Program-made: the position numbers and the translations under genes
Part shown: piece after piece, positions 39,488 to 49,810 of the stretch
Layout of the letters: each line of letters opens with the position of its first letter
Position numbering within the stretch: position 1 is the first letter of the stretch
Source: Oscillospiraceae bacterium
GTDB lineage: Bacteria > Bacillota > Clostridia > Oscillospirales > Ruminococcaceae
Direction: 5' to 3'
DNA length: 64,000 bases
NCBI GenBank assembly: GCA_018110825.1
Contig: JAGBCL010000095.1
Coordinates: 248,001-312,000, forward strand
Notes under the pieces: generated by a model
Database searches by the model: none
What the model saw: only the letters and a program-made list of their open reading frames with translations
Told to the model about the DNA's origin: nothing

Positions 39488-39700
39488 ATGGAATTGCTGA
39501 AAGAGTTGGGCATAAGCGGCGGTACAGCAATTATTCTGCTTATCGTGTCATACTGGGTAATCAAGGGAGCTGTGAAGAATGGTATTATTGCCGCCTTTGA
39601 AGAAATCACAGGCAAGGACACGCTGAAAAAGCTTCTAAAAGCAAAGTATATGAACGGGGAAGCGGCTGAACAGGACGAAGAAAAGGAAGTTGAAGAATAA
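39488..39700 (+). CDS. 70-residue single-span membrane protein
   Basis: GGAGAAAGG precedes the ATG. An N-terminal segment with a Gly-Gly (LGISGG) leads into a membrane helix (TAIILLIVSYWVIKGAVKNGIIAAF), a short amphipathic helix (TLKKLLKAKYMNG) and a very acidic end. Its stop overlaps the CPBP gene start (TAATG). It could be an accessory membrane peptide of this operon. I considered an exported peptide substrate, but the Glu-rich tail and lack of a separable leader make that speculative. Confidence 0.65.
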   Translation: MELLKELGISGGTAIILLIVSYWVIKGAVKNGIIAAFEEITGKDTLKKLLKAKYMNGEAAEQDEEKEVEE

Positions 39701-40368
39701 TGAGTAAGAAAAAAGAGTGGATATGTCTTACTGTAAGCTTTCTTGGCAGTATGCTTGGTTTGTATGGCGTTATAGCATTCAATCAGTATGTAATGATGTC
39801 ATTACCCTTGGCAGGCAGAATGGTCAGTATGATAGCAGTTTACTGGCTGGCGGCTTTAATTCCTGTAATTGTAATGCTTGTCTGCAAGGATAAGCTGTCA
39901 GATTACGGCTTTGTCAAGGACAAAATTGGTATGCAGATTATTGTCGGCATATTGATTGGTCTGGCAATGTCTGTCGTGCTGACTTTAATCCCACATCTTT
40001 TAGGCTTCGGAGAGTATTTTGACACGGTAAAGCATTACAAATACCTGTGGCAGTTTATCTATGAGTTTTTCTATTGTATAGTTGCAGTTGGTCTTACCGA
40101 GGAATTTGTATTCCGTGGGGTGATTTACAGTAAAATAAAGAATATTGCTCAGAAAGAGTGGATAGCAATTCTCGTTTCATCACTCCTTTTTGGACTGTTT
40201 CATATATTCGTTGGCAACATATTTCAGATATTCACAACTGCATTTATTGGCGTTGTGTTCTGTATTTGCAGACTGAAAATCAAGAATTGTTCGGTGTTGT
40301 CACTGATAATTGCACACGGTGTATATGACGCATTGATAACTGTATGGGCATCACTTTTATTGACGTAA
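39700..40368 (+). CDS. CPBP family intramembrane metalloprotease
   Basis: 222 residues, about seven hydrophobic helices. The CPBP (Abi/CAAX) motifs are present: TEEFVFRGVIY (EExxxR), FGLFHIFVGN (FxxxH) and a last helix with HGVYDAL. The family includes CAAX-prenyl proteases in eukaryotes and, in Firmicutes, bacteriocin self-immunity and processing proteins. Last gene of the MacAB-like operon, translationally coupled to the 70-residue protein. Confidence 0.88.
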   Translation: MSKKKEWICLTVSFLGSMLGLYGVIAFNQYVMMSLPLAGRMVSMIAVYWLAALIPVIVMLVCKDKLSDYGFVKDKIGMQIIVGILIGLAMSVVLTLIPHLLGFGEYFDTVKHYKYLWQFIYEFFYCIVAVGLTEEFVFRGVIYSKIKNIAQKEWIAILVSSLLFGLFHIFVGNIFQIFTTAFIGVVFCICRLKIKNCSVLSLIIAHGVYDALITVWASLLLT

Positions 40369-40381
40369 TATATTTGGGGTA

Positions 40382-40420
40382 AATGACCTGTGGAGTAACT
40401 TCTTCACAGGTTATTTTTTT
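40382..40420 (+). terminator. Terminator of the MacAB-like operon
   Basis: AATGACCTGTG (40382-40392) pairs with CACAGGTTATT (40405-40415, one G.U) and is followed by TTTTT. Confidence 0.88.
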
Positions 40421-40447
40421 GTTGCAACCAATAGTTGCTGTAACTAA

Positions 40448-40546
40448 TACTAACAACCAATAAAACTGTAGACAAAAAATCTTCACATAATCAAATACGC
40501 AGGATTATGCTCGATTTTTTGTACAGTTTTTGATTGGTTCTTAGTA
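40448..40546. repeat. 99-bp imperfect palindrome, MITE-like
   Basis: The 45-nt left arm (40448-40492) and the 44-nt right arm (40503-40546) are inverted copies with about 38 matching positions and a 10-nt centre. Both ends begin with TA (TA-CTAA.AACCAAT on each side), consistent with a TA target as used by IS630/Tc1-type elements. No transposase is present. It lies between the terminator of one operon and the promoter of the next, 10 bp before the -35 box. Confidence 0.7.
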
Positions 40547-40556
40547 TAAATTTTAA

Positions 40557-40585
40557 TTGACATTTTTCACAAAAAGAGGTATAAT
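40557..40585 (+). promoter_or_regulatory. Perfect consensus promoter of the Ter-like operon
   Basis: TTGACA (40557-40562), 17 bp, TATAAT (40580-40585), 58 bp before the first ATG. Confidence 0.88.
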
Positions 40586-40643
40586 TTTATTATGTTAGAA
40601 TGAGCAAATTATATCTTTTTAAATAGAAAGGCAGGGCAATATT

Positions 40644-41285
40644 ATGTCAGAATTTTCAAGACGACTTCCCGTTTATCTCCTCCTTGACGTTTCAGGTTCA
40701 ATGGCAGGTGACCCTATCGAAGCAGTAAAACACGGCGTCCGTGCGCTTATCTCTGAGCTGAGAGGCGACCCTCAGGCTCTTGAAACAGCGTACCTCTCCG
40801 TTATCACATTCAACTCCAGCGCAAGACAGGTTACTCCGCTTACAGAGCTAATGCTTTTCAAGGAGCCAACCCTCACAGCTGGCGGTGCAACAGCTCTCGG
40901 TGCGGCTCTCCAGCTTCTCAACGAGTGTATCCGTTCCGAGGTAAGAAAGTCAACTGAAACTCAGAAGGGTGACTGGCGTCCTCTCGTGTTCATCCTTACA
41001 GACGGCGCACCAACTGACGAATGGCGTGAAGCTGCTGCAATGCTCAAGAGCACAAAGCCTGCAAACATTATCGCTTGTGCTGCAGGAGCGTACGCTGATA
41101 CAAAGGTGCTCAAGGAAATCACTGACTGCGTGCTTATGATGAACACTCTTTCCGCAGGTGACCTTGCACAGTTCTTTGCGTGGGTTTCCAGCTCCGTAAA
41201 AATGTCCTCCAAGAGCCTTGACTCCAAGCCTGGTGCAAACATCGAACTTCCACCACCGCCACAGGGCTTCGTAATTGTTCCGTAA
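40644..41285 (+). CDS. TerY-like von Willebrand factor A domain protein
   Basis: 213 residues. A compact vWA domain with a complete MIDAS: DVSGSMAG near the N-terminus, the Thr in TAGGATALGAAL and FILTDGAPTDEW. RRLPVYLLLDVSGSM and WRPLVFILTDG are characteristic of TerY. No signal or membrane segment: cytosolic. In known Ter systems TerY forms a metal-ion-dependent platform together with a PP2C phosphatase and a Ser/Thr kinase, and exactly these two genes follow. GAAAGG precedes the ATG. First gene of a six-gene operon. Confidence 0.9.
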   Translation: MSEFSRRLPVYLLLDVSGSMAGDPIEAVKHGVRALISELRGDPQALETAYLSVITFNSSARQVTPLTELMLFKEPTLTAGGATALGAALQLLNECIRSEVRKSTETQKGDWRPLVFILTDGAPTDEWREAAAMLKSTKPANIIACAAGAYADTKVLKEITDCVLMMNTLSAGDLAQFFAWVSSSVKMSSKSLDSKPGANIELPPPPQGFVIVP

Positions 41286-41297
41286 TCGGAGGTAACA

Positions 41298-42497
41298 ATG
41301 GAAAATAACATTAACAAGCTTTCGGATAATGACGTAACCGCCCATACAGCGGCAATGTGGAAATACAACCCCGTGCCCGAAAGTCCTGAGCCATACCCCG
41401 AAGCAAGCTGTTCATCTGCAAATGAAAGCGGCTTTGAGGTTTTCGGTGCAACAGTCCGTGGCAAAAAGCACAAGCACGACGGTACAAACTGCGACGATTT
41501 CTATGCCTTTGAAATTTTTGAGGGTACAGTTATCGCTGCGGCTGCTGATGGTGCAGGCTCAAAGCTGTTTTCGCGAATTGGTGCAAAGGCGGCTTGTGAG
41601 GCTGTTATAAAGTACGTCAAGGCTCGTATTTCATCAATAAAGCGTGACAATCCGAATTACATTGAAATATTGAGTCTGCCACTTGACAATACCGATTTCG
41701 GTGCTATGTGCGGTCAGCTTGCGGCAATGCTCCGTGATAGCTATGCGGAAGCATTTGCGGCGGTTGAAGCAGCTTACGAAAAGAGAAAGGATTACCCCGA
41801 ATTTGAGGAAGCCGCAGGCAGAAAGCCTGAGCTTAAAGACTTTTCCTGCACACTCCTTGCGTCTGTGGTTATCCCTGTTGAGACGGCAAATGGCAGGGAA
41901 TACCTTACCGCGTCAATTCAGCTTGGTGACGGTATGATTGCGGCTGTTGACGAAAGTAACGCAAATCCGCTTATTCTTCTCGGCACGGCTGACGGAGGTA
42001 GCTTTTCGGGGGAAACCGAATTCCTTACTTCCGAACAGTTCAGAAGTCCCGAAAGCCTCATGAGCCGTACAAAAATCCGCAGAGGAAAGCTTACATCACT
42101 TATGCTTATGACAGACGGCGTTGCCGACGACTATTATCCTAACAATACACAGCTTCTTCGTCTTGTGCTTGACCTGAAGCTGAACAATATTCTCGAAATT
42201 GCTGAGCCTGAGCTTATTACAGATGTGACAGTGCCTCAGCCGATTGAGTACCCTTGGGTAAATGACGGCGATGTGAAATATGCTTTGCAGTACGCAAAAA
42301 ATGTACTTGCTGAAACAAATATGACATTGGAACAGCTTTGGGGTGATAAGCATGCACAGAGGAAAGCGTCCCTTGCTTCCTTTGATATTGTTCATGACAA
42401 GGACAAGGCTGAAATGCTGAAAATATGGCTTGACAACTACGTTGAGCGTGGTTCTTTTGATGACCGAACATTGCTTATTATAAATATTAACACATAA
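41298..42497 (+). CDS. PP2C-family protein phosphatase of a TerY-P triad
   Basis: 399 residues. The PP2C metal motifs are recognisable: HDGTNCDDFYAF, AAAADGAGSKLFSRIGAKAA (DGxGS), SIQLGDGMIAA and LMLMTDGVADDYYPN (DG). Cytosolic. It should remove phosphate from Ser/Thr residues placed by the kinase encoded 16 bp downstream. The C-terminal ~90 residues extend beyond the usual catalytic core (LEQLWGDKHAQRKASLASFDIVHDKDKAEMLKIWLDNYVERGSFDDRTLLIIN). GGAGG precedes the ATG. Confidence 0.88.
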   Translation: MENNINKLSDNDVTAHTAAMWKYNPVPESPEPYPEASCSSANESGFEVFGATVRGKKHKHDGTNCDDFYAFEIFEGTVIAAAADGAGSKLFSRIGAKAACEAVIKYVKARISSIKRDNPNYIEILSLPLDNTDFGAMCGQLAAMLRDSYAEAFAAVEAAYEKRKDYPEFEEAAGRKPELKDFSCTLLASVVIPVETANGREYLTASIQLGDGMIAAVDESNANPLILLGTADGGSFSGETEFLTSEQFRSPESLMSRTKIRRGKLTSLMLMTDGVADDYYPNNTQLLRLVLDLKLNNILEIAEPELITDVTVPQPIEYPWVNDGDVKYALQYAKNVLAETNMTLEQLWGDKHAQRKASLASFDIVHDKDKAEMLKIWLDNYVERGSFDDRTLLIININT

Positions 42498-42513
42498 ATT
42501 CCGGAGGTTTCTT

Positions 42514-43983
42514 ATGAGCAGAATGGGTGAAGCGACCCTTGCTGACGGAAGAAAAATTCCGTATGTAATAACCGACAATCCTCCTCGCGGAGGAATGAAA
42601 TACACATATTTTGCACCCGATAAATCCTACGTTGTGCAGTTCTTCAATGAGCCGAATAAAATCGACCGTAATATGACCGCACGTCTTGAAGCAATTATCG
42701 GACGCTACAACCCGACTATTCCCGAGTCAAAGGGTGGTGCAATCGGTAACGACGAGCGCCTTGCAAGCTATTTTGCAGGACGTTTCTGCTGGCCTACCGA
42801 CCTTGTTGTCCTGCCTGAATTCGGCATAGTCTCGCCTGCGTATCCGAAGAGCTTTTTCTTTGAGGAGGGTGCTTCACAGTTCCTTGACCTTAAAGGCAAG
42901 GACAAGAAAAGCAACTGGTTTACTTCCAGCAACCGACGCTTTCTCAACAAAAGCGAGCTTGGTGATTTTCGTTCAATGATACAGATGTCGCTTCTGCTGG
43001 CACGTTCTATCAGAAGACTTCATCAGGCTGGACTTGCACATTCCGACCTTTCCAACAACAACGTTCTTATCGACCCTAAGACGGGAAACTGCGTTGTTAT
43101 CGATATCGATACACTTGTTGTGCCTGGGCTTTTTCCGCCTGAGGTTGCAGGAACACGAGGTTATATTGCTCCAGAGGTTCTCTCCACAATGGAACTTGAC
43201 CGAAATGACCCGAGGAGAAAAATTCCAAGTTCAGTAACGGATTTGCATGCTCTTGCCGTGCTTATCTATGAATATCTTTTCTGCCGTCATCCTCTTATGG
43301 GACCTAAGATTTATTCAACCGAATCAGCCGAGCGTGACGATTACCTTGGTCTTGGACCAATGGCAACGTTTGTCGAAAACCCTGATGATACATCAAATCG
43401 TCCGTCTGCAATGAAAACAACCATCAAGGACCTGGGTCCTATTATGGAAAAACTGTTTCTCCGTGCATTTGTGGACGGTCTGCATAACCCTGCTTTGCGT
43501 CCGTCTGCAATGGAATGGGAACGTGGTCTGGTAAAGACCTGGGATTTGCTCCATAAGTGTTCAAATCCTTCCTGCGACAAGAAATGGTTTGTTCTTCACG
43601 ATGTGAATAATCCTGTATGTCCGTTCTGCGGAACACGAATTACCGACAGGAATATCGTGCGCTTTGAACTCAGTTCAGAGGTGCGTGGACATGATGGTGA
43701 ATGGAGAAATTATTCAGAACTTGACGTTGTAAATAATACTCCGCTTTTCAAGTGGCATCTCTACAGCAATGTGTTTGCTGATGAAAAGGCGGATAAATCC
43801 CTGCAGGCTTATGTTTGTTGTCATAACGGAGAATGGTTCCTTATTAACCGTAACGCCAAGGGTATGCTTTCACCTCAGGGTAATCCGGTTCCTGTGGGAC
43901 AGGCAATCCGTCTCACTGACGGAACAATTTTCCGTGGTTCACGTTATGACCGTGGAATGTTAATCAAGGTGAAAATTATTTAA
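42514..43983 (+). CDS. Ser/Thr protein kinase-like protein with C-terminal zinc ribbon
   Basis: 489 residues. The kinase lobe lacks a classical Gly-rich loop but has MKYTYFAPDKSYVVQFF, the catalytic loop H176-S-D178-L-S-N-N-N, the metal-binding IDIDTLVV in place of DFG, and the activation-end motif GTRGYIAPEVLS, then LHALAVLIYEYLFCRHPLMG. A treble-clef-like zinc ribbon (CSNPSC starting at residue 349, CPFC) follows, then a ~100-residue beta-rich domain. This is the kinase of the vWA-PP2C-kinase triad; its substrate may be the TerD or ATPase-like proteins of the same operon. Confidence 0.87.
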   Translation: MSRMGEATLADGRKIPYVITDNPPRGGMKYTYFAPDKSYVVQFFNEPNKIDRNMTARLEAIIGRYNPTIPESKGGAIGNDERLASYFAGRFCWPTDLVVLPEFGIVSPAYPKSFFFEEGASQFLDLKGKDKKSNWFTSSNRRFLNKSELGDFRSMIQMSLLLARSIRRLHQAGLAHSDLSNNNVLIDPKTGNCVVIDIDTLVVPGLFPPEVAGTRGYIAPEVLSTMELDRNDPRRKIPSSVTDLHALAVLIYEYLFCRHPLMGPKIYSTESAERDDYLGLGPMATFVENPDDTSNRPSAMKTTIKDLGPIMEKLFLRAFVDGLHNPALRPSAMEWERGLVKTWDLLHKCSNPSCDKKWFVLHDVNNPVCPFCGTRITDRNIVRFELSSEVRGHDGEWRNYSELDVVNNTPLFKWHLYSNVFADEKADKSLQAYVCCHNGEWFLINRNAKGMLSPQGNPVPVGQAIRLTDGTIFRGSRYDRGMLIKVKII

Positions 43984-44009
43984 ATTTCCCAAAGAGAGGA
44001 ATATGATTT

Positions 44010-46037
44010 ATGGCTTTATCCGGTCTTTCTGAGCGAGAAGCTGAGGCTTCAAGACAGAAATACGGCTTTAATGAGCAAATATATGAAGCAAATTTTGCAG
44101 AAAAAATATTATATGGAGTAAAATCACTCAGCTGCAAACTTTTTGTAATTGCAGCAATGGTAAAAATTATTGCATTACTTTTGGGACTGCTTGAAATTAC
44201 AGAAACGGTACCTGATGTATCGGGTATATTCATTTTTGCTGGTCTTGCAGTTTTGTGTGCATTTCTGGAAGCAGTGCTGCGGCATGTTTCAGAAAAAAAT
44301 ATAAGCGAGATACGTACTTGTGCACGTCAGAGTGAATATAATGTGCTGCGCAGCGGCAAAGCTGTTGTAATTGATGAGAAAATGCTTGCCGTTGGTGATG
44401 TGGTTTATCTTGCAAGCGGAGATAAAGTTCCTGCTGACGGAATTGTTGCCGACGGGCAGTTTATTGTTGACCAGTCTGAATTCGGAATCCTTGAAAAGAT
44501 TGAAAAAACTACACCGCCTTCAACATTTCATGGCAACAAAACCATGGGCCTGAAAAGTGCCTACAGCCTATATAAGGGTTCTGTTATTACAGAAGGCAGC
44601 GGTGCAATGAAAATAACAGCAATCGGTGAAAATGTTTTTGCTGCAGAAAAAAATCATTTTGATACAAGAATTTACAATGAAAAATACAGCGGATTACTCA
44701 GAGCAGGTTCAATTACTGGTATTGTCTGTTCGGTAATAACGGCTTTAACCGCTATTATTTACGGTGCTGTTTCAGGTCAGATTATAATTGGAATAACAGA
44801 GGGAGTTGCGGCAGCTGCGGTAATACTTGCCGTAATATGTATATGTGAAAAGAATCTGATGGCAGAAACCGTTGCGGCATATATAATGAAAAAGCTGCAT
44901 AAAAACAACATTTCGCTTTTGAATCCTGATTTGCTTAATTCTATGCAGGATGTTAAAGTAGTGTTTACCGATAAATTCGGTGCACTTACAGAGGGCAGTT
45001 GTGTTGTCAGCGGTTTTATTGACGGCAGCGGTAATCAGGTGGATGGCCTTGAAAATGTTGACGAGAAGGTACTTGGACTTATAAAAACAGCAGCAATAAA
45101 TACTTCGTCATCGATTCTTGAAAGCGATAATTTAGTATACGGCGGAACTCCTGTTGACAGAGCAATTCTGAATTACGTGAAAAAAGCTTCGGGAAGAGCC
45201 AAAGTTAAGAAGCTGAGTAATGTCGAAAACAACAATATGAAGGGCGTAACTGTAAATATTGACGGTAAGCTTGCAACATTTTTCAAAGGCAGAGCAGAAG
45301 CTGTAATCAGCAGATGCTCAGACAGCTTTTCGGCAGACGGAAAAAAACGTAAAATAACCAATAAAGATGCTCTGATAAAGCTTGCAGCAACAATTTCGCT
45401 TACGGGAAATGATGTAATCGCCATTGCAGTATCTGACAAGGCGATAAAACAGAATGTGTTTCCATCAGGTTCATATACGTTTATAGGCATGTTTGTAGTT
45501 CATGATAAGGTCTGCAGCGATGCAGGTGAGGCAATGCAAAAGCTTGAAGAAAAAGGTGTTAAAACAATTCTTATCACTTCCGCAAGCCGTGAAACGGTTA
45601 TCTATACGCTGAGAAAAACGGCTTCAAAAAACAAAGGAGTAATTTTAAGCTCCGAGCAGCTTTCTAAAATGAACGATGAACAACTCAAGCGAAAATATTC
45701 CGAAATAAAAGCAATCGTTAATGCAAACAGAAATGATAAGATACGCATGGCAGAAGCAGCATCTGAGCAGGGACTCAGAAGTTGTGTAATAGGTTCAGAG
45801 TATGATGATATTCATATGTTTGACGAAACTGATGCAGCAATTTCATCGCATGTCTGTCCATCATCAATGCACAGTATTTCTGATGCGTCAGTTAAAGCTT
45901 GCAGTATAAAATCAGCTGCGGAGCTGCACGCTGAATCGATACGATATTCAGGATTGTGTAAAATGTTTGCTTCAGCAAGAATTTTCTGTGCAGTCGTTTT
46001 GATGCTGATGACAATTATATCAATTATAGGACGGTGA
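44010..46037 (+). CDS. P-type ATPase-like protein with eroded catalytic motifs (likely pseudoenzyme)
   Basis: 675 residues. The layout follows a P2-type ATPase: an N-terminal cation-ATPase segment (LSGLSEREAEASRQKYGFNE), M1/M2 helices, an actuator domain (AVGDVVYLASGDKVPADGIVADG), M3/M4, P and N domains and one last helix. The Asp for phosphorylation remains (D321) but DKTGTLT reads DKFGALT; the TGES loop reads FGILEK; the M4 PEGLP reads TEGVAA; the hinge GDGxND reads GSEYDD. Only about five helices are present and the protein ends after M5, where transporters have M5-M10. Pumping is therefore unlikely. It may sense ions or nucleotides for the Ter operon. Aggregation-prone decay is possible, but the frame is intact. 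Confidence 0.82.
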   Translation: MALSGLSEREAEASRQKYGFNEQIYEANFAEKILYGVKSLSCKLFVIAAMVKIIALLLGLLEITETVPDVSGIFIFAGLAVLCAFLEAVLRHVSEKNISEIRTCARQSEYNVLRSGKAVVIDEKMLAVGDVVYLASGDKVPADGIVADGQFIVDQSEFGILEKIEKTTPPSTFHGNKTMGLKSAYSLYKGSVITEGSGAMKITAIGENVFAAEKNHFDTRIYNEKYSGLLRAGSITGIVCSVITALTAIIYGAVSGQIIIGITEGVAAAAVILAVICICEKNLMAETVAAYIMKKLHKNNISLLNPDLLNSMQDVKVVFTDKFGALTEGSCVVSGFIDGSGNQVDGLENVDEKVLGLIKTAAINTSSSILESDNLVYGGTPVDRAILNYVKKASGRAKVKKLSNVENNNMKGVTVNIDGKLATFFKGRAEAVISRCSDSFSADGKKRKITNKDALIKLAATISLTGNDVIAIAVSDKAIKQNVFPSGSYTFIGMFVVHDKVCSDAGEAMQKLEEKGVKTILITSASRETVIYTLRKTASKNKGVILSSEQLSKMNDEQLKRKYSEIKAIVNANRNDKIRMAEAASEQGLRSCVIGSEYDDIHMFDETDAAISSHVCPSSMHSISDASVKACSIKSAAELHAESIRYSGLCKMFASARIFCAVVLMLMTIISIIGR

Positions 46038-46041
46038 TTTT

Positions 46042-47334
46042 TTGGACAGCAAAGAAATCCAGCGTTTGCTTGACACCCCCGATAATTTCGGCAGAGTAGA
46101 GCTTCCCAAGGGTGAATTTGAAGGAAAGTTCATCGTGCGTAAAAGCTGTAAAATAAATGGTAACGGCTCGATTTTCTGGAGCAATTCGGGACCTATGCTT
46201 GTTGTCGATGCCGAAAAGGTTGAGATTGATAATCTGAAAATTGAGTTGACAAACAGCAGTCTGCCGCCTGAACAGTATGTTTCTGTTTTCTGCAGGAATA
46301 ATGATACTGTTTTTACAAATGTGGAAGTAAACGGTGCAATACTTGGTATAAAGGACGAGGAACAATTCTGGGGAATACCAAGAATTGTTGATTTGGGAAT
46401 TTTTGAAGCAGAAAAAGAGCATACATATATCATGGAAATTTATTCTCCTGTTGAAGCGGAAATAAGCTGTAATTTCCATGATGTAAGTTTGTCTGTGAAT
46501 TCTCTTTCACAGGGATACAACACTATTACAATCAGTGTCGGAAAAATCAGAAGCGGCTCGCTTATTTACGGAAATATCGTGATAAAATCTGCAGTTGAAA
46601 GAAGAATAATCCTCTGCGGCACAGCAGGAAACGAAAATACATTTGTTGATGGTGAAATGCTGTATACAGTTGACAGGGAAGCACCTGTTCAGTATTCTGA
46701 AATGCTGAAGAATCTTGATTATGTTCAGCTTGCAACAATGCCTGAGCCTGAACCTGAAACAGTTGAACCCGAGGTAGAAGAAATAAATGAAGAACCTGCT
46801 GATGAGTGTGATGAGGAAAATGTAATAATTGTTCCCGGTAAGCGTTTGCCGATTGCACCGAAGCAATACAAAATCGAACTGACAGGCAAATCTGAACCCA
46901 AAATGGATATCGATGCATATCTGTTCATGCTTGACAGTGTTGGTAAAGTCCGAAATGATAAGCGAATGATTTTTTTCGGAAATGACCATTCTGATTGTGG
47001 AAGTGCAACCTACCTCAATGCCCCCGATAAGCGTGTAATGTATATTGATTTCCGACGTATTCCATCCGACGTAAGTATGATGGTGCTGTTGTTTTCAATT
47101 TATGGCAATAATCCGAGTCACCTTTTTGATAAGCTTTTAGACGGTGACGTAAGTATACTTTGCGAAAATGGTGTGCACATGCACCTTCCGCTTGCCGATA
47201 ACATCAGCAAGCGTACGCTTCTTGCAGTTGCCTTTGAGCGTACCGAAGGTATATGGGAAATGATACCATCAGGCAAGGGTATCGGTCTGTCCCTTGAAGA
47301 AATCTGCCGAGGTTACGGCGTAACAATTGTATAA
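46042..47334 (+). CDS. Beta-helix-like domain fused to a TerD domain (TTG start)
   Basis: 430 residues from TTG 46042, four bases after the ATPase-like gene, with GGACGGTGA upstream; no better start is in frame. Residues ~10-215 have short strand-turn repeats (VELPKGEFEGKFIVRKSCKINGNGSIFW, VEIDNLKIELTNSSL, TVFTNVEVNGAIL) like a right-handed parallel beta-helix. An acidic Pro/Glu linker (~233-262) follows. Residues ~287-430 resemble TerD: IDAYLFMLDSVGKVRNDKRMIFFGN, IDFRRIPSDVSMMVLLFSIYG, TLLAVAFERTEGIWEMIPSGKGI and GLSLEEICRGYGV. TerD binds calcium; some acidic ligand positions seem altered. The fusion is unusual to my knowledge. Confidence 0.72.
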   Translation: MDSKEIQRLLDTPDNFGRVELPKGEFEGKFIVRKSCKINGNGSIFWSNSGPMLVVDAEKVEIDNLKIELTNSSLPPEQYVSVFCRNNDTVFTNVEVNGAILGIKDEEQFWGIPRIVDLGIFEAEKEHTYIMEIYSPVEAEISCNFHDVSLSVNSLSQGYNTITISVGKIRSGSLIYGNIVIKSAVERRIILCGTAGNENTFVDGEMLYTVDREAPVQYSEMLKNLDYVQLATMPEPEPETVEPEVEEINEEPADECDEENVIIVPGKRLPIAPKQYKIELTGKSEPKMDIDAYLFMLDSVGKVRNDKRMIFFGNDHSDCGSATYLNAPDKRVMYIDFRRIPSDVSMMVLLFSIYGNNPSHLFDKLLDGDVSILCENGVHMHLPLADNISKRTLLAVAFERTEGIWEMIPSGKGIGLSLEEICRGYGVTIV

Positions 47335-47347
47335 ATGGAGAAAAAAT

Positions 47348-47974
47348 ATGGAATATAACGAGCTTTTAAACAAACGCCGCAGCATAAGAAAATACCTTGC
47401 TGACAGCGTTGATGACAATACGATTGAACAGCTTGTTTCAGCAGCAGTAACCGCACCAAGCGGCTGCAACAGCCAGTGCTGGCGGTTTGTGGCAATCAGA
47501 ACTCCCGAAAAGATTTCCGCACTTGCAGAAGCTGTTGAAAGGGGAGTACGTCGCTTCTACAGAGATGCCGAGGACGAAAACTTCGTTGCATCAAGAGTGA
47601 AGCAGACAACCTTTTTCAAGAACGCACCGTTAGTAATTCTGGTGTACCTCACCGAAATGAAGTACCACGACCCTCGTGTTGAGGAGTATTACTCCGCAAA
47701 GGGCTACGGACACAGCGAAATGCTTTCCACACTGGGCAATCCAGACATGCTGAGTGTTGGTGCAGCAGTTGAAAATCTGCTTCTCAAAGCCGAGGAGTTG
47801 GGACTTGGCGCTTGCTGGATGAACGACCCCATTGTTTCCGCAGAGGAAATAAACGAGTTCATCGGTGCACCTGAGGGACACCACCTTATGAGCGTAATTC
47901 CCGTTGGCAAGCCTGCTTATGTTCCCCGTGAAAAGCAGATGAAGCCGATGAACGAGGTTTTGGAACTTATATAA
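47348..47974 (+). CDS. Nitroreductase family protein
   Basis: 208 residues from ATG 47348 (GGAG 8-9 nt upstream). FMN-binding landmarks: LLNKRRSIRKYLADS, AAVTAPSGCNSQCWRFVAI, VGAAVENLLLKAEELGLGACWM and VIPVGKPAYVPREKQ. The family reduces nitro-aromatics, quinones or flavins with NAD(P)H in the cytosol; the substrate is unknown. It starts 13 bp after the TerD-fusion gene and precedes the operon terminator, so it is probably cotranscribed with the Ter-like genes, though a link in function is unproven. Confidence 0.88.
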   Translation: MEYNELLNKRRSIRKYLADSVDDNTIEQLVSAAVTAPSGCNSQCWRFVAIRTPEKISALAEAVERGVRRFYRDAEDENFVASRVKQTTFFKNAPLVILVYLTEMKYHDPRVEEYYSAKGYGHSEMLSTLGNPDMLSVGAAVENLLLKAEELGLGACWMNDPIVSAEEINEFIGAPEGHHLMSVIPVGKPAYVPREKQMKPMNEVLELI

Positions 47975-48013
47975 AAAATATGGGTATCGAGCTATTGTCG
48001 ATACCCATATTTT
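47975..48013. terminator. Bidirectional terminator between Ter-like operon and chemoreceptor gene
   Basis: A 16-bp perfect stem (47975-47990 with 47998-48013) with a 7-nt loop, A-rich and T-rich flanks, between convergent genes. Confidence 0.93.
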
Positions 48014-49810
48014 TTATTTTGTCTTGAAGGATTCAGCAATCTTTTTCAACCTGTTAGCCTCGGTAACAATCGCCTTAGCGTCCGTCGTGTCAGGCTTTAC
48101 AGGCTCGTATGCAGGTTCAAGTGAAAGCTGGAGAATTAAGTCCTCTGCGGATTTTGCGGCATCTGCGTATTCCTTAGCCGCATTGGTAAGTACATTCATC
48201 TGTGCAAGTGCCTCATCAGCGGAAGCAAGCGCTTCTTCAAGAAGTGCGGCGGTCTGCTTTGCAAGGGTTGAGCCCTTGGAAATGGAGGAAACCGTGCCCT
48301 CGATAAGCTCTGTCGTGGACTTCGCTGAGTCGGAACTCATCTGTGCAAGGGAGCGTACCTCCTCGGCAACAACCGCAAAGCCCTTGCCGAATTCGCCTGC
48401 ACCCGAAGCCTCGATAGCGGCATTGAGCGCAAGAATATTTGTCTGGAAAGCAATATCCTCAATCTGTTCAACAACATCAACAATTCCGTCAGTGTTGTCA
48501 TTGATTGAGTAAATCGCCTCAGTAAGATTATCAAGTTTTTTCTGTTCATCAGCAAGCTTCTGTCTTGCTTCAACAAGCTTATCTGCGGTCTTGTTTGCCT
48601 GAGCAACTATATCTGTACAATCCTCAAAAGCGTTGTAAACTGTAACATTTTTCTTCACGGGCTCAGGCTTTGCAGCGGATTTTACCGTAATCTTTTCAGC
48701 ATTGTCAATAACCTTTTCCGAAGCTGTGCGGATACGTAAAAGTGCCTTGCGAAGCGTTTTCTTTACATCGGAAAGTGCATCGTGAATCATAGCGAAATCG
48801 CCTGCGTAAACAGCCTTGTCCTCGGAAATGTCACCCTCGGCAACATGATTGATTGAAACAGTGATTTCACGGATACAGCCATTGAGTGCACCGATTGTCT
48901 TGTTGAGTGCCTCGGCAATTGCCATAGACTCGTCATTATGGTAAGCCTTAGGAACGGGTGAAGTGAAATCACCATCAGCAAGTGCGGAAATACGTTTTGC
49001 CATGGCCTTGATAGGAGTAAGTGTTTTGCTGAGAATTGCAGCTGTAATAAGGCTGAGAATTGCTGCAAGAATTACCGAAAGGATAACTGATGTAACAATT
49101 TCAAATGTAAGCGGGGGCATCAGCTCTGCAGGAACTGCTTCGACATAAATCGTCCAGCCTTCACGGCTGTCAATACTGTTAGAAGTGACGTATACATTAT
49201 CATTTGCAGAAGTTTGTCCCGCAATAACTGTGCTTTCGTCCTTTACATAAACGGCACAGGATTTGCCAAGAGTAATTTTATCGAAGGTTTCATCGAAAAA
49301 TTCGCTGCCTAATGTGCACACAAGCACGCCTGCACGTTCTTCATCAACATAGTCAAGAGGAGCAGAATATGTACAAACGCTTCTTCCATTCATTTCATAC
49401 GGAGCAGTAAGCCACGCAGTACCATCAATAGCCTTTGCGACAGCTTCATTTTCCGAATAATCGGTTTTCCCGTCAATTGACTTCATGTCAGCAGAGTTTA
49501 CGACGTCAAAAGTTATTCCAGTGCCCGCATAGCTTTCGTTTCGTGCTTCAAGCAGTCGCAGACGATAATCGTCAACTGCACGGCTTATCGATAAGTCTTT
49601 TGAAACGTCAGCTGCAACAGCTGTAACAGCATCAATTTTTCCTGAAAGAGCATCTGCCGCAGTAACGGTGCTTTGCTCTATCAGCGATTTTACTACAGCC
49701 TCAGCAGAATGCTTTGCAGCCGAATATGATATAAGGGAGAACAGCACTGCCGCAACCGCAAATACCGCAAAGGTTACAGCAATCAGTTTTGTTTTAACTG
49801 AATACTTCAA
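48014..49810 (-). CDS. Methyl-accepting chemotaxis protein
   Basis: 598 residues. Membrane helix (~8-28), extracellular Cache-type sensor (ITFDVVNSADMKSIDGKTDYSENEAVAKAI, GKSCAVYVKDESTVIAG), second helix (~240-268), HAMP domain (LTPIKAMAKRISALADGDFTSPVPK), and a signalling coiled coil with hairpin tip around NAAIEASGAGEFGKGFAVVAEEVRSLA. The tip reads SGAGEFGKG where most receptors have ARAGEAGRG, but the Glu and AVVAEEVR contacts for CheA/CheW are kept. The ligand is unknown. It is monocistronic; no flagellar or che gene is in the window. Confidence 0.92.
   Translation of the reverse strand: MKYSVKTKLIAVTFAVFAVAAVLFSLISYSAAKHSAEAVVKSLIEQSTVTAADALSGKIDAVTAVAADVSKDLSISRAVDDYRLRLLEARNESYAGTGITFDVVNSADMKSIDGKTDYSENEAVAKAIDGTAWLTAPYEMNGRSVCTYSAPLDYVDEERAGVLVCTLGSEFFDETFDKITLGKSCAVYVKDESTVIAGQTSANDNVYVTSNSIDSREGWTIYVEAVPAELMPPLTFEIVTSVILSVILAAILSLITAAILSKTLTPIKAMAKRISALADGDFTSPVPKAYHNDESMAIAEALNKTIGALNGCIREITVSINHVAEGDISEDKAVYAGDFAMIHDALSDVKKTLRKALLRIRTASEKVIDNAEKITVKSAAKPEPVKKNVTVYNAFEDCTDIVAQANKTADKLVEARQKLADEQKKLDNLTEAIYSINDNTDGIVDVVEQIEDIAFQTNILALNAAIEASGAGEFGKGFAVVAEEVRSLAQMSSDSAKSTTELIEGTVSSISKGSTLAKQTAALLEEALASADEALAQMNVLTNAAKEYADAAKSAEDLILQLSLEPAYEPVKPDTTDAKAIVTEANRLKKIAESFKTK

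Follow-up and report, generated by a model that had tools for sequence, protein, structure and literature searches.

A pseudo-P-type ATPase beside a TerY-P phospho-switch in a reduced Ter operon of an Oscillospiraceae bacterium

What role is left to a P-type ATPase that has lost the motifs of a pump but stays beside a kinase and a phosphatase? The question is raised by a Ter-like operon of six genes at positions 40644-47974 of the window, the 64,000-nucleotide stretch of an Oscillospiraceae genome (contig JAGBCL010000095.1 of GCA_018110825.1) analysed here. A TerY-P triad, comprising a vWA protein, a PP2C phosphatase and a Ser/Thr kinase (genes 1-3), is followed by the ATPase-like gene 4, by a fusion protein ending in a TerD domain (gene 5) and by a nitroreductase-family gene (gene 6). 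A sequence-only reading of the same DNA had described gene 4 as a decayed P-type ATPase. The anatomy and the history of the locus are well supported, and the evidence tilts, if only slightly, towards a pared-down Ter module that stands by itself in Oscillospiraceae and in which the pseudo-pump now serves as a membrane scaffold or as a substrate of the phospho-switch.

Anatomy and selection of the gene 4 pseudo-pump

44010..46037, + strand: gene 4, pseudo-P-type ATPase, 675 aa (Pfam E1-E2 ATPase, 3.3e-12)
44970..44990, + strand: phosphorylation-motif remnant DKFGALT, for DKTGT(I/L)T (aligned motif table)

The P-type ATPase fold is modelled along the entire length of gene 4, with the A, P and N domains and the M1-M4 core by which the fold is recognized; the model contains helices M1-M5 only and ends after M5. 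In NCBIfam the protein lies closest to Ca2+-type P-ATPases, with a score far under the cut-offs of those models. A scan of genome contigs with gene 4 alone returned 33 stretches, no relative among them. The best solved relative of the family by sequence profile is Listeria LMCA1 (lmo0841; 2.4e-56), a working pump, compared to which gene 4 lacks the phosphorylation, hinge and ion-site motifs as well as M6-M10.

Relatives were taken from a kinase-alignment scan, the best 80 of 111 being used: 73 belong to Bacillota (L133 among them, its title being just 'uncultured bacterium'), the other 7 to different phyla. Genes at these loci were called with a panel in blastp, at E 1e-4 and, for fusions, at 35 bits, within up to 10 kb on each side. 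With dead and intact pumps assigned by two strings, DKTG[TS] and GDGxND, the 80 loci comprise (i) 34 with an intact pump of 865-940 aa, (ii) 21 with a full-length dead pump, (iii) five with a contig-cut ATPase, kept apart (L099, L115, L126, L128 and L142), and (iv) 20 with no ATPase. The window and the 21 named loci give 22 full-length dead pumps, from which DKTG, GDGxND and PEGLP are each absent (0/22), compared with 34/34 for each motif in intact pumps from comparable neighbourhoods; an NGE-like string anywhere in the protein occurs in 3/22. Judged by these motifs, the pump chemistry of gene 4 is lost, its catalytic and ion-site signatures being gone.

That gene 4 is still chemically active through altered residues, for example in nucleotide binding or channel-like conduction, is highly improbable. 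The window copy does retain Asp321 in the P motif and, in a KGAPE-like motif (FFKGRAE), the Lys, and a D-K/R string resembling the P motif is found somewhere in 11/22 dead pumps; in others the aligned Asp is replaced, and in several relatives the site reads TENEG, AGRSS or IERAG. GDGxND and PEGLP, moreover, are missing without exception, and the window model has no helix beyond M5. Recent duplication of the intact Ter ATPase that the own genome encodes is also rejected as the origin of gene 4, the two proteins sharing 27% identity and standing on different branches of the ATPase tree.

The frames themselves tell of retention: the 22 full-length copies measure 675-715 aa and are open across deep divergence. 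Ratios of non-synonymous to synonymous substitution rates (dN/dS), computed for 18 hand-picked pairs in which lineages are shared and several dS exceed 1, span 0.09-0.24 in dead pumps (11 pairs; 0.13, 0.17 and 0.18 in the three with dS < 0.4) and overlap the 0.03-0.17 of intact pumps (7 pairs), with kinases at 0.02-0.12 (18 pairs). When an unconstrained gene 4 was simulated in 500 runs with substitutions only, 0.2% of the frames were still open after 0.06 changes per site, and not one after 0.25. A decaying pseudogene is rejected by dN/dS values far below 1 and by this neutral simulation, and on these substitution patterns the dead pump is maintained by selection. 'Decayed' therefore fits the enzyme, derelict with its motifs lost, and not the gene, with its open frames, low dN/dS and changed conservation.

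Gene 4 could also be a relic, an outgoing former pump doing little beside a working part made of the triad and gene 5, which is quite improbable. Graded states do exist among the named loci, from the full operon through L106 (an intermediate with an intact 918-aa pump and the fusion, and no standalone TerD) and the dead pump to the triad or the PP2C-kinase pair alone, and constraint is weaker than in intact pumps by the ranges just given. However, dN/dS is far below 1 even in the three unsaturated pairs, full-length copies persist over deep divergence, and the order of conservation has changed, not merely flattened. Among intact pumps mean pairwise identity falls from M5 (0.81) through P (0.74-0.76), M1-M2 (0.61), A (0.59), M3-M4 (0.56) and the N-tail (0.49) to N (0.41). 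In the two dead-pump clades the values are 0.34-0.35 for M5, 0.30-0.37 for M1-M4, 0.43-0.50 for P, 0.49-0.54 for A, 0.46-0.56 for N and 0.50-0.52 for the N-tail. M5, the most conserved part of intact pumps, is among the least conserved of dead ones, where A and N join the N-tail at the top. This shifted order is taken as the best clue to function, pointing to cytosolic parts of gene 4 that would be bound or modified by something.

The operon, its triad and the fusion protein

40557..40585, + strand: promoter TTGACA-17-TATAAT, 58 bp ahead of gene 1 (motif scan)
40644..41285, + strand: gene 1, TerY-like vWA protein, 213 aa (Pfam VWA, 4.4e-13)
41298..42497, + strand: gene 2, PP2C phosphatase, 399 aa (Pfam PP2C_2, 4.5e-34)
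42514..43983, + strand: gene 3, 489-aa Ser/Thr kinase carrying a zinc ribbon and a C-terminal part (Pfam kinase, 7e-11)
46042..47334, + strand: gene 5, 430-aa fusion of beta-helix-like, ASH-like and TerD parts, starting with TTG (Pfam TerD, profiles, model)
46042..46356, + strand: gene 5 residues 1-105, beta-helix-like solenoid (profile matches; strands in model)
46354..46635, + strand: gene 5 residues ~105-198, ASH/PapD/HYDIN-like beta-sandwich (structure model)
46816..47331, + strand: gene 5 residues 259-430, TerD domain without acidic Ca2+ loop (PF02342, 1.1e-15)
47348..47974, + strand: gene 6, nitroreductase-family flavoprotein, accessory (Pfam nitroreductase, 2.6e-35)
47971..48017, + strand: intrinsic terminator (terminator scan)

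The operon had been read as six head-to-tail genes with gaps of 4-26 bp between a perfect promoter and a strong terminator, and the re-derived coordinates agree. With gaps of 12, 16, 26, 4 and 13 bp, it is confirmed as described, co-transcription being predicted from the layout, and Pfam names all six proteins. The promoter is the sole 12/12 consensus match among 27 promoter-like sites in 39500-49000; since shuffled sequence gives a mean of 17.7, the weaker sites carry little meaning. Upstream of gene 1 in the 19 loci scanned, the window included, the promoter scores 12/12 in five, 11/12 in four and 7-10 in ten. The terminator has a stem longer than any other in its scan. GC content varies within the operon, from 51.8% in gene 1 to 39.4% in gene 4 and 48.9% in gene 6 (third-position GC 48.8%, 30.7% and 51.9%, respectively), and expression level or gene age may be the cause.

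Genes 1-3 are a TerY-P triad, as had been proposed: besides the Pfam assignments, gene 1 has an intact MIDAS (DVSGS at 15, GGAT at 80, LTDG at 118), gene 2 holds the motif strings DGAGS, GDG, TDG and DDRT (a PDB sequence search with it gave no match), and the C-terminal zinc ribbon of gene 3 is formed by C349, C354, C369 and C372, four cysteines invariant in 10/10 rows of the kinase alignment. Kinase activity and its reversal by the PP2C protein are predicted from these motifs, which persist where the pump is dead: vWA MIDAS in 20/20, PP2C DGxGS in 19/20, kinase HSDLSxxN in 22/22 and the zinc ribbon in 22/22. The beta3 Lys of the kinase could not be placed, lying off the expected position (VVQF in the window, VVAF in several relatives), with an invariant Lys in GGMK upstream; these kinases may thus have an atypical active site. 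At one dead-pump locus (L129:5491-6701) the PP2C gene is read in two frames, 185 and 222 aa long, that overlap, and it may be split or broken.

Gene 5 bears out the TerD-like domain noticed in the sequence-only reading, PF02342 being confirmed in 31/31 scanned fusion proteins. The beta-helix named there is suggested for about the first 100 residues only, with profile matches to NosD (7o0y, 1.9e-4; NCBIfam NosD at 3.7e-5, under the cut-off) and pectinesterase (4pmh, 0.0018), although the fold search scarcely covers residues 1-100; residues 105-198 are modelled instead as an ASH/PapD-like sandwich, putatively an Ig-like one of the HYDIN/SPD-2 type. Solved matches of this sandwich are mostly cilia and centrosome proteins.

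The TerD domain of gene 5 has no calcium loop. According to Pan et al. 2011, as cited in a passage of PMC8123226, KP-TerD binds Ca2+, and its acidic loop GDNRTGEGDGDDE (2kxt/2kxv) is missing from gene 5. Compared with KP-TerD and with TerD from S. coelicolor (3ibz), none of 49 fusions shows a similar acidic pattern: one pattern applied to both sets found it in 0/49 fusions, those of the window and of intact-pump operons included, and in 87/104 standalone TerDs. As the loop is also absent from fusions in intact-pump operons, it must have disappeared before the pump died. With the gene 4 motifs and the gene 5 loop both absent, the window operon has no recognizable calcium pump or calcium loop, and nothing found in these sequences supports a calcium role for it, though one is conceivable. 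The metal sensing considered in the sequence-only reading is likewise no more than a possibility.

The nitroreductase, listed as an operon member in the sequence-only reading, proves not to be core. Gene 6 is present in 4/20 loci of the genus (the own genome, G003, G004 and G017), several contigs being too short to judge, and its candidacy as a core gene is rejected on this count. Six loci (L095, L096, L098, L101, L102 and L104) have in its place, downstream of the fusion gene, a gene for a 258-aa protein that belongs, by a family test on the L095 copy, to the metallo-beta-lactamase superfamily.

Distribution in the genus and across Bacillota

Within the genus, the kinase is found in 20/21 genomes, the own included, the other 19 copies being 81-97% identical to that of the window; the exception is G007, which is 78% complete. 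The same 20 genomes carry a gene 4 homologue, the other 19 at 30-62% identity, with no internal stops and with three contig-cut. The five core genes stand in order on one contig in 15/20 loci, including the window, and in the five loci cut by contig ends (G002, G005, G009, G010 and G020) the visible part agrees with this order. TerC, reported as absent in the sequence-only reading, is indeed found in 0/13 genus genomes searched (the own and 12 more), compared with 9/14 control genomes. The TerD domain occurs once, in the gene 5 fusion, in 18/21 genomes, four times in the own genome and G004, and not in G007.

The own genome contains a second, complete Ter operon (G000:C101:4732-18869, L007) without the TerY-P triad, comprising a trypsin/YceG protein, rhomboid, YceG, TelA, three TerDs, an intact 895-aa P-ATPase, PRTase_2/TRSP, a C-C-bond lyase, StiP-PELOTA and HAD; G004 has the same gene set (L087). 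A sample of the family, with about six candidates scored per genome, covered 197 genomes from 125 genera; the profile of gene 4 has a match of 1e-60 or better in 29 of the genomes. Short gene 4 frames are confined to two genera (G000, G001 and contig-cut G002; G022 and G167), the other listed matches being at least 892 aa.

These counts bear on a reading in which the pseudo-pump is the regulatory partner of another cation ATPase, with which it pairs or competes, the phospho-switch setting the inhibition. Gene 4 has the full A-P-N-M1..M5 body of the Ca2+-ATPase type, 16/20 genus genomes with gene 4 show, among the matches listed, another P-type ATPase frame of at least 892 aa, and the own and G004 genomes hold an intact Ter ATPase elsewhere. 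The reading is nonetheless unlikely: the membrane helices are the fastest-changing parts of gene 4, which is odd for pairing within the membrane, and by the measure of TerD domains the 18 genomes with gene 5 alone have no second Ter operon.

An anti-phage module, a TerY-P defence variant whose fast-changing pseudo-pump and fusion would sense or block infection at the membrane, is rather doubtful. Passages of PMC7699616, PMC11090510 and PMC10889362 report TerY-P triads as phage defence, and also call them a metal-sensing phosphorylation switch; a passage of PMC7824862 describes the Ter system as acting against phages; and gene 4 does change fast. On the other side, the cluster is near-core in the genus, and its upstream neighbours (proB, proA, adenosylhomocysteinase and MacAB-type export genes) are not known defence genes, the rest of the window not having been surveyed for such genes. 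A PADLOC search, with E allowed up to 0.1 and with no profiles singled out as those of TerY-P, found no match for the vWA protein, PP2C, gene 4 or gene 5; kinase matches belong to other systems, and the nitroreductase matches weakly (PDC-M43A, 0.0065). The stand-alone defence triad reported in PMC11090510 has an OB-fold kinase, whereas the window kinase has a zinc ribbon. General envelope stress is rated above phage defence because of the near-core distribution and the kind of upstream genes, and the family to which the module belongs suggests stress of the envelope, by xenobiotics or by phages.

Beyond the genus, the neighbourhood recurs with the pump alive. At the 34 intact-pump loci, the pump lies directly behind the kinase in 26 and a gene 5 type fusion is present in 26, with standalone TerDs in 33 and lyase/PRTase/StiP genes in 20. 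At the 21 dead-pump loci the ATPase follows the kinase directly in 20 (the called start overlaps the kinase in L100) and the fusion is present in all 21, with standalone TerDs and lyase/PRTase/StiP genes in 0/21 each within the distance searched. The six genes of the window likewise include no PRTase, C-C-bond lyase, StiP or HAD gene and no standalone TerD-type protein. Chance neighbourhood is rejected by the conserved linkage in the genus and in these wider loci, and the refuting case named in the sequence-only reading, ATPase-like and TerD-like genes only rarely linked to the triad, is not borne out, the linkage being common in both. The ATPase and the beta-helix fusion, set outside the classical terZABCDEF set in the sequence-only reading, are indeed foreign to it, but ordinary in Bacillota; the unusual feature is that pump chemistry is lost together with standalone TerDs and metabolite genes. 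One further arrangement, in L148, has the triad followed by the fusion, YceG and TelA, and no ATPase.

Proposed working and comparison with known systems

Since the machinery is lost and yet selection keeps the gene beside the kinase, the old pump is suggested to be now a signalling part. The ancestor was a Bacillota ter operon of the order vWA, PP2C, kinase, Ca2+-type P-ATPase, three to four TerDs, beta-helix/ASH/TerD fusion and lyase/PRTase/StiP; comparison shows that the standalone TerDs, the metabolite genes and the transport chemistry of the pump were lost from it and, in the clade of the window, M6-M10. In the mechanism inferred here, the pseudo-pump would form a membrane platform whose cytosolic parts the kinase and PP2C, as a pair controlled by the vWA protein, read or modify. 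Kinase and phosphatase would act at the membrane on gene 4, gene 5 or both, the vWA protein serving as assembly factor, and the gene 5 fusion may be an adaptor or effector that docks on the pseudo-pump. The general Ter model, as outlined in a passage of PMC7824862, comprises a metabolite signal, sensing by TerB/TerD, a membrane component and sub-membrane structures; all that is left at this locus is the switch, a single adaptor of TerD type and a body in the membrane.

Several points weigh against a scaffold or substrate role for the pseudo-pump. The cytosolic parts of clade 1 are nearly alike in conservation (0.43-0.50), so that the shift in constraint rests mainly on weak membrane parts, and gene 4 is 62% identical to its L088 counterpart compared with 97% for the kinase, a rapid change that is also compatible with relaxed constraint. 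In the kinase tree, the dead-pump rows split into two adjacent clades, next to L106 and L112, and the tree in this form requires two changes; a single clade is not rejected (p 0.477), and the ATPase tree unites the dead pumps in one clade (SH-aLRT 100), on very long branches with odd letter composition that weaken this evidence for a single origin. The triad occurs without genes 4 and 5 in L112, L130 and L159, and in L140, L144, L146 and L150 PP2C and kinase were found with no vWA, ATPase or fusion; the switch is therefore able to function where genes 4 and 5 are absent. Even the triad is imperfect at two loci, PP2C being in two frames in L129 and lacking one of two strings in L105, and the protein contacts within the module are predicted only. 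In L140, L144, L146 and L150 the gene after the PP2C-kinase pair encodes 214-219 aa, an endonuclease III in L140.

A wider claim is plausible but held tentatively, a little short of an even chance: an entire lineage of P-type ATPases would consist of pseudoenzymes under selection, and in this genus of gut bacteria, as in one or more genera related to it, a Ter calcium pump would have become a phospho-regulated membrane scaffold, giving a minimal Ter signalling without TerC, TelA, calcium-loop TerDs or metabolite genes. Dead enzymes turned regulators are familiar among kinases and proteases. In the open-licence literature, no paper pairing the exact words 'P-type ATPase' and 'pseudoenzyme' was found, nor was a dead Ter pump met in the literature searched, including combinations of TerD with Ca2+-ATPase, vWA and phosphatase. 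The 2012 review of the Ter system that is cited for the triad reportedly covers wider ter neighbourhoods, among which the Bacillota ATPase linkage may figure.

A Ter system has here been stripped by evolution of its pump chemistry, of the calcium loop and of the metabolite genes, and what was kept is a phospho-switch with two fast-changing partners. The target of the TerY-P switch is, in the author's view, an open point in Ter biology, and the five-gene set lets it be sought without a background of tellurite, calcium transport or metabolite synthesis.

Compared to known systems, the locus stands at three distances. The terZABCDEF tellurite operon of enterobacteria, its gene make-up given here partly from general knowledge, shares with the window only the TerD domain; no TerC was found in the window's genome, and the six genes include no standalone TerD-type protein. 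Closer are the TerY-P triads defined in a passage of PMC11090510, with the same three genes, the C-terminal zinc ribbon of the kinase and the active-site strings; compared with triads elsewhere, that of the window has a pseudo-pump and a beta-helix/ASH/TerD fusion as its linked genes in place of restriction or nuclease genes. Closest are the Bacillota ter operons with an intact Ca2+-type P-ATPase, exemplified by L108, L114 and L121, in which the triad, the ATPase slot and the gene 5 type fusion follow in the same order as in the window; these operons keep a working-type pump sequence and, at the frequencies given above, the standalone TerDs (33/34) and lyase/PRTase/StiP genes (20/34) that the window lacks.

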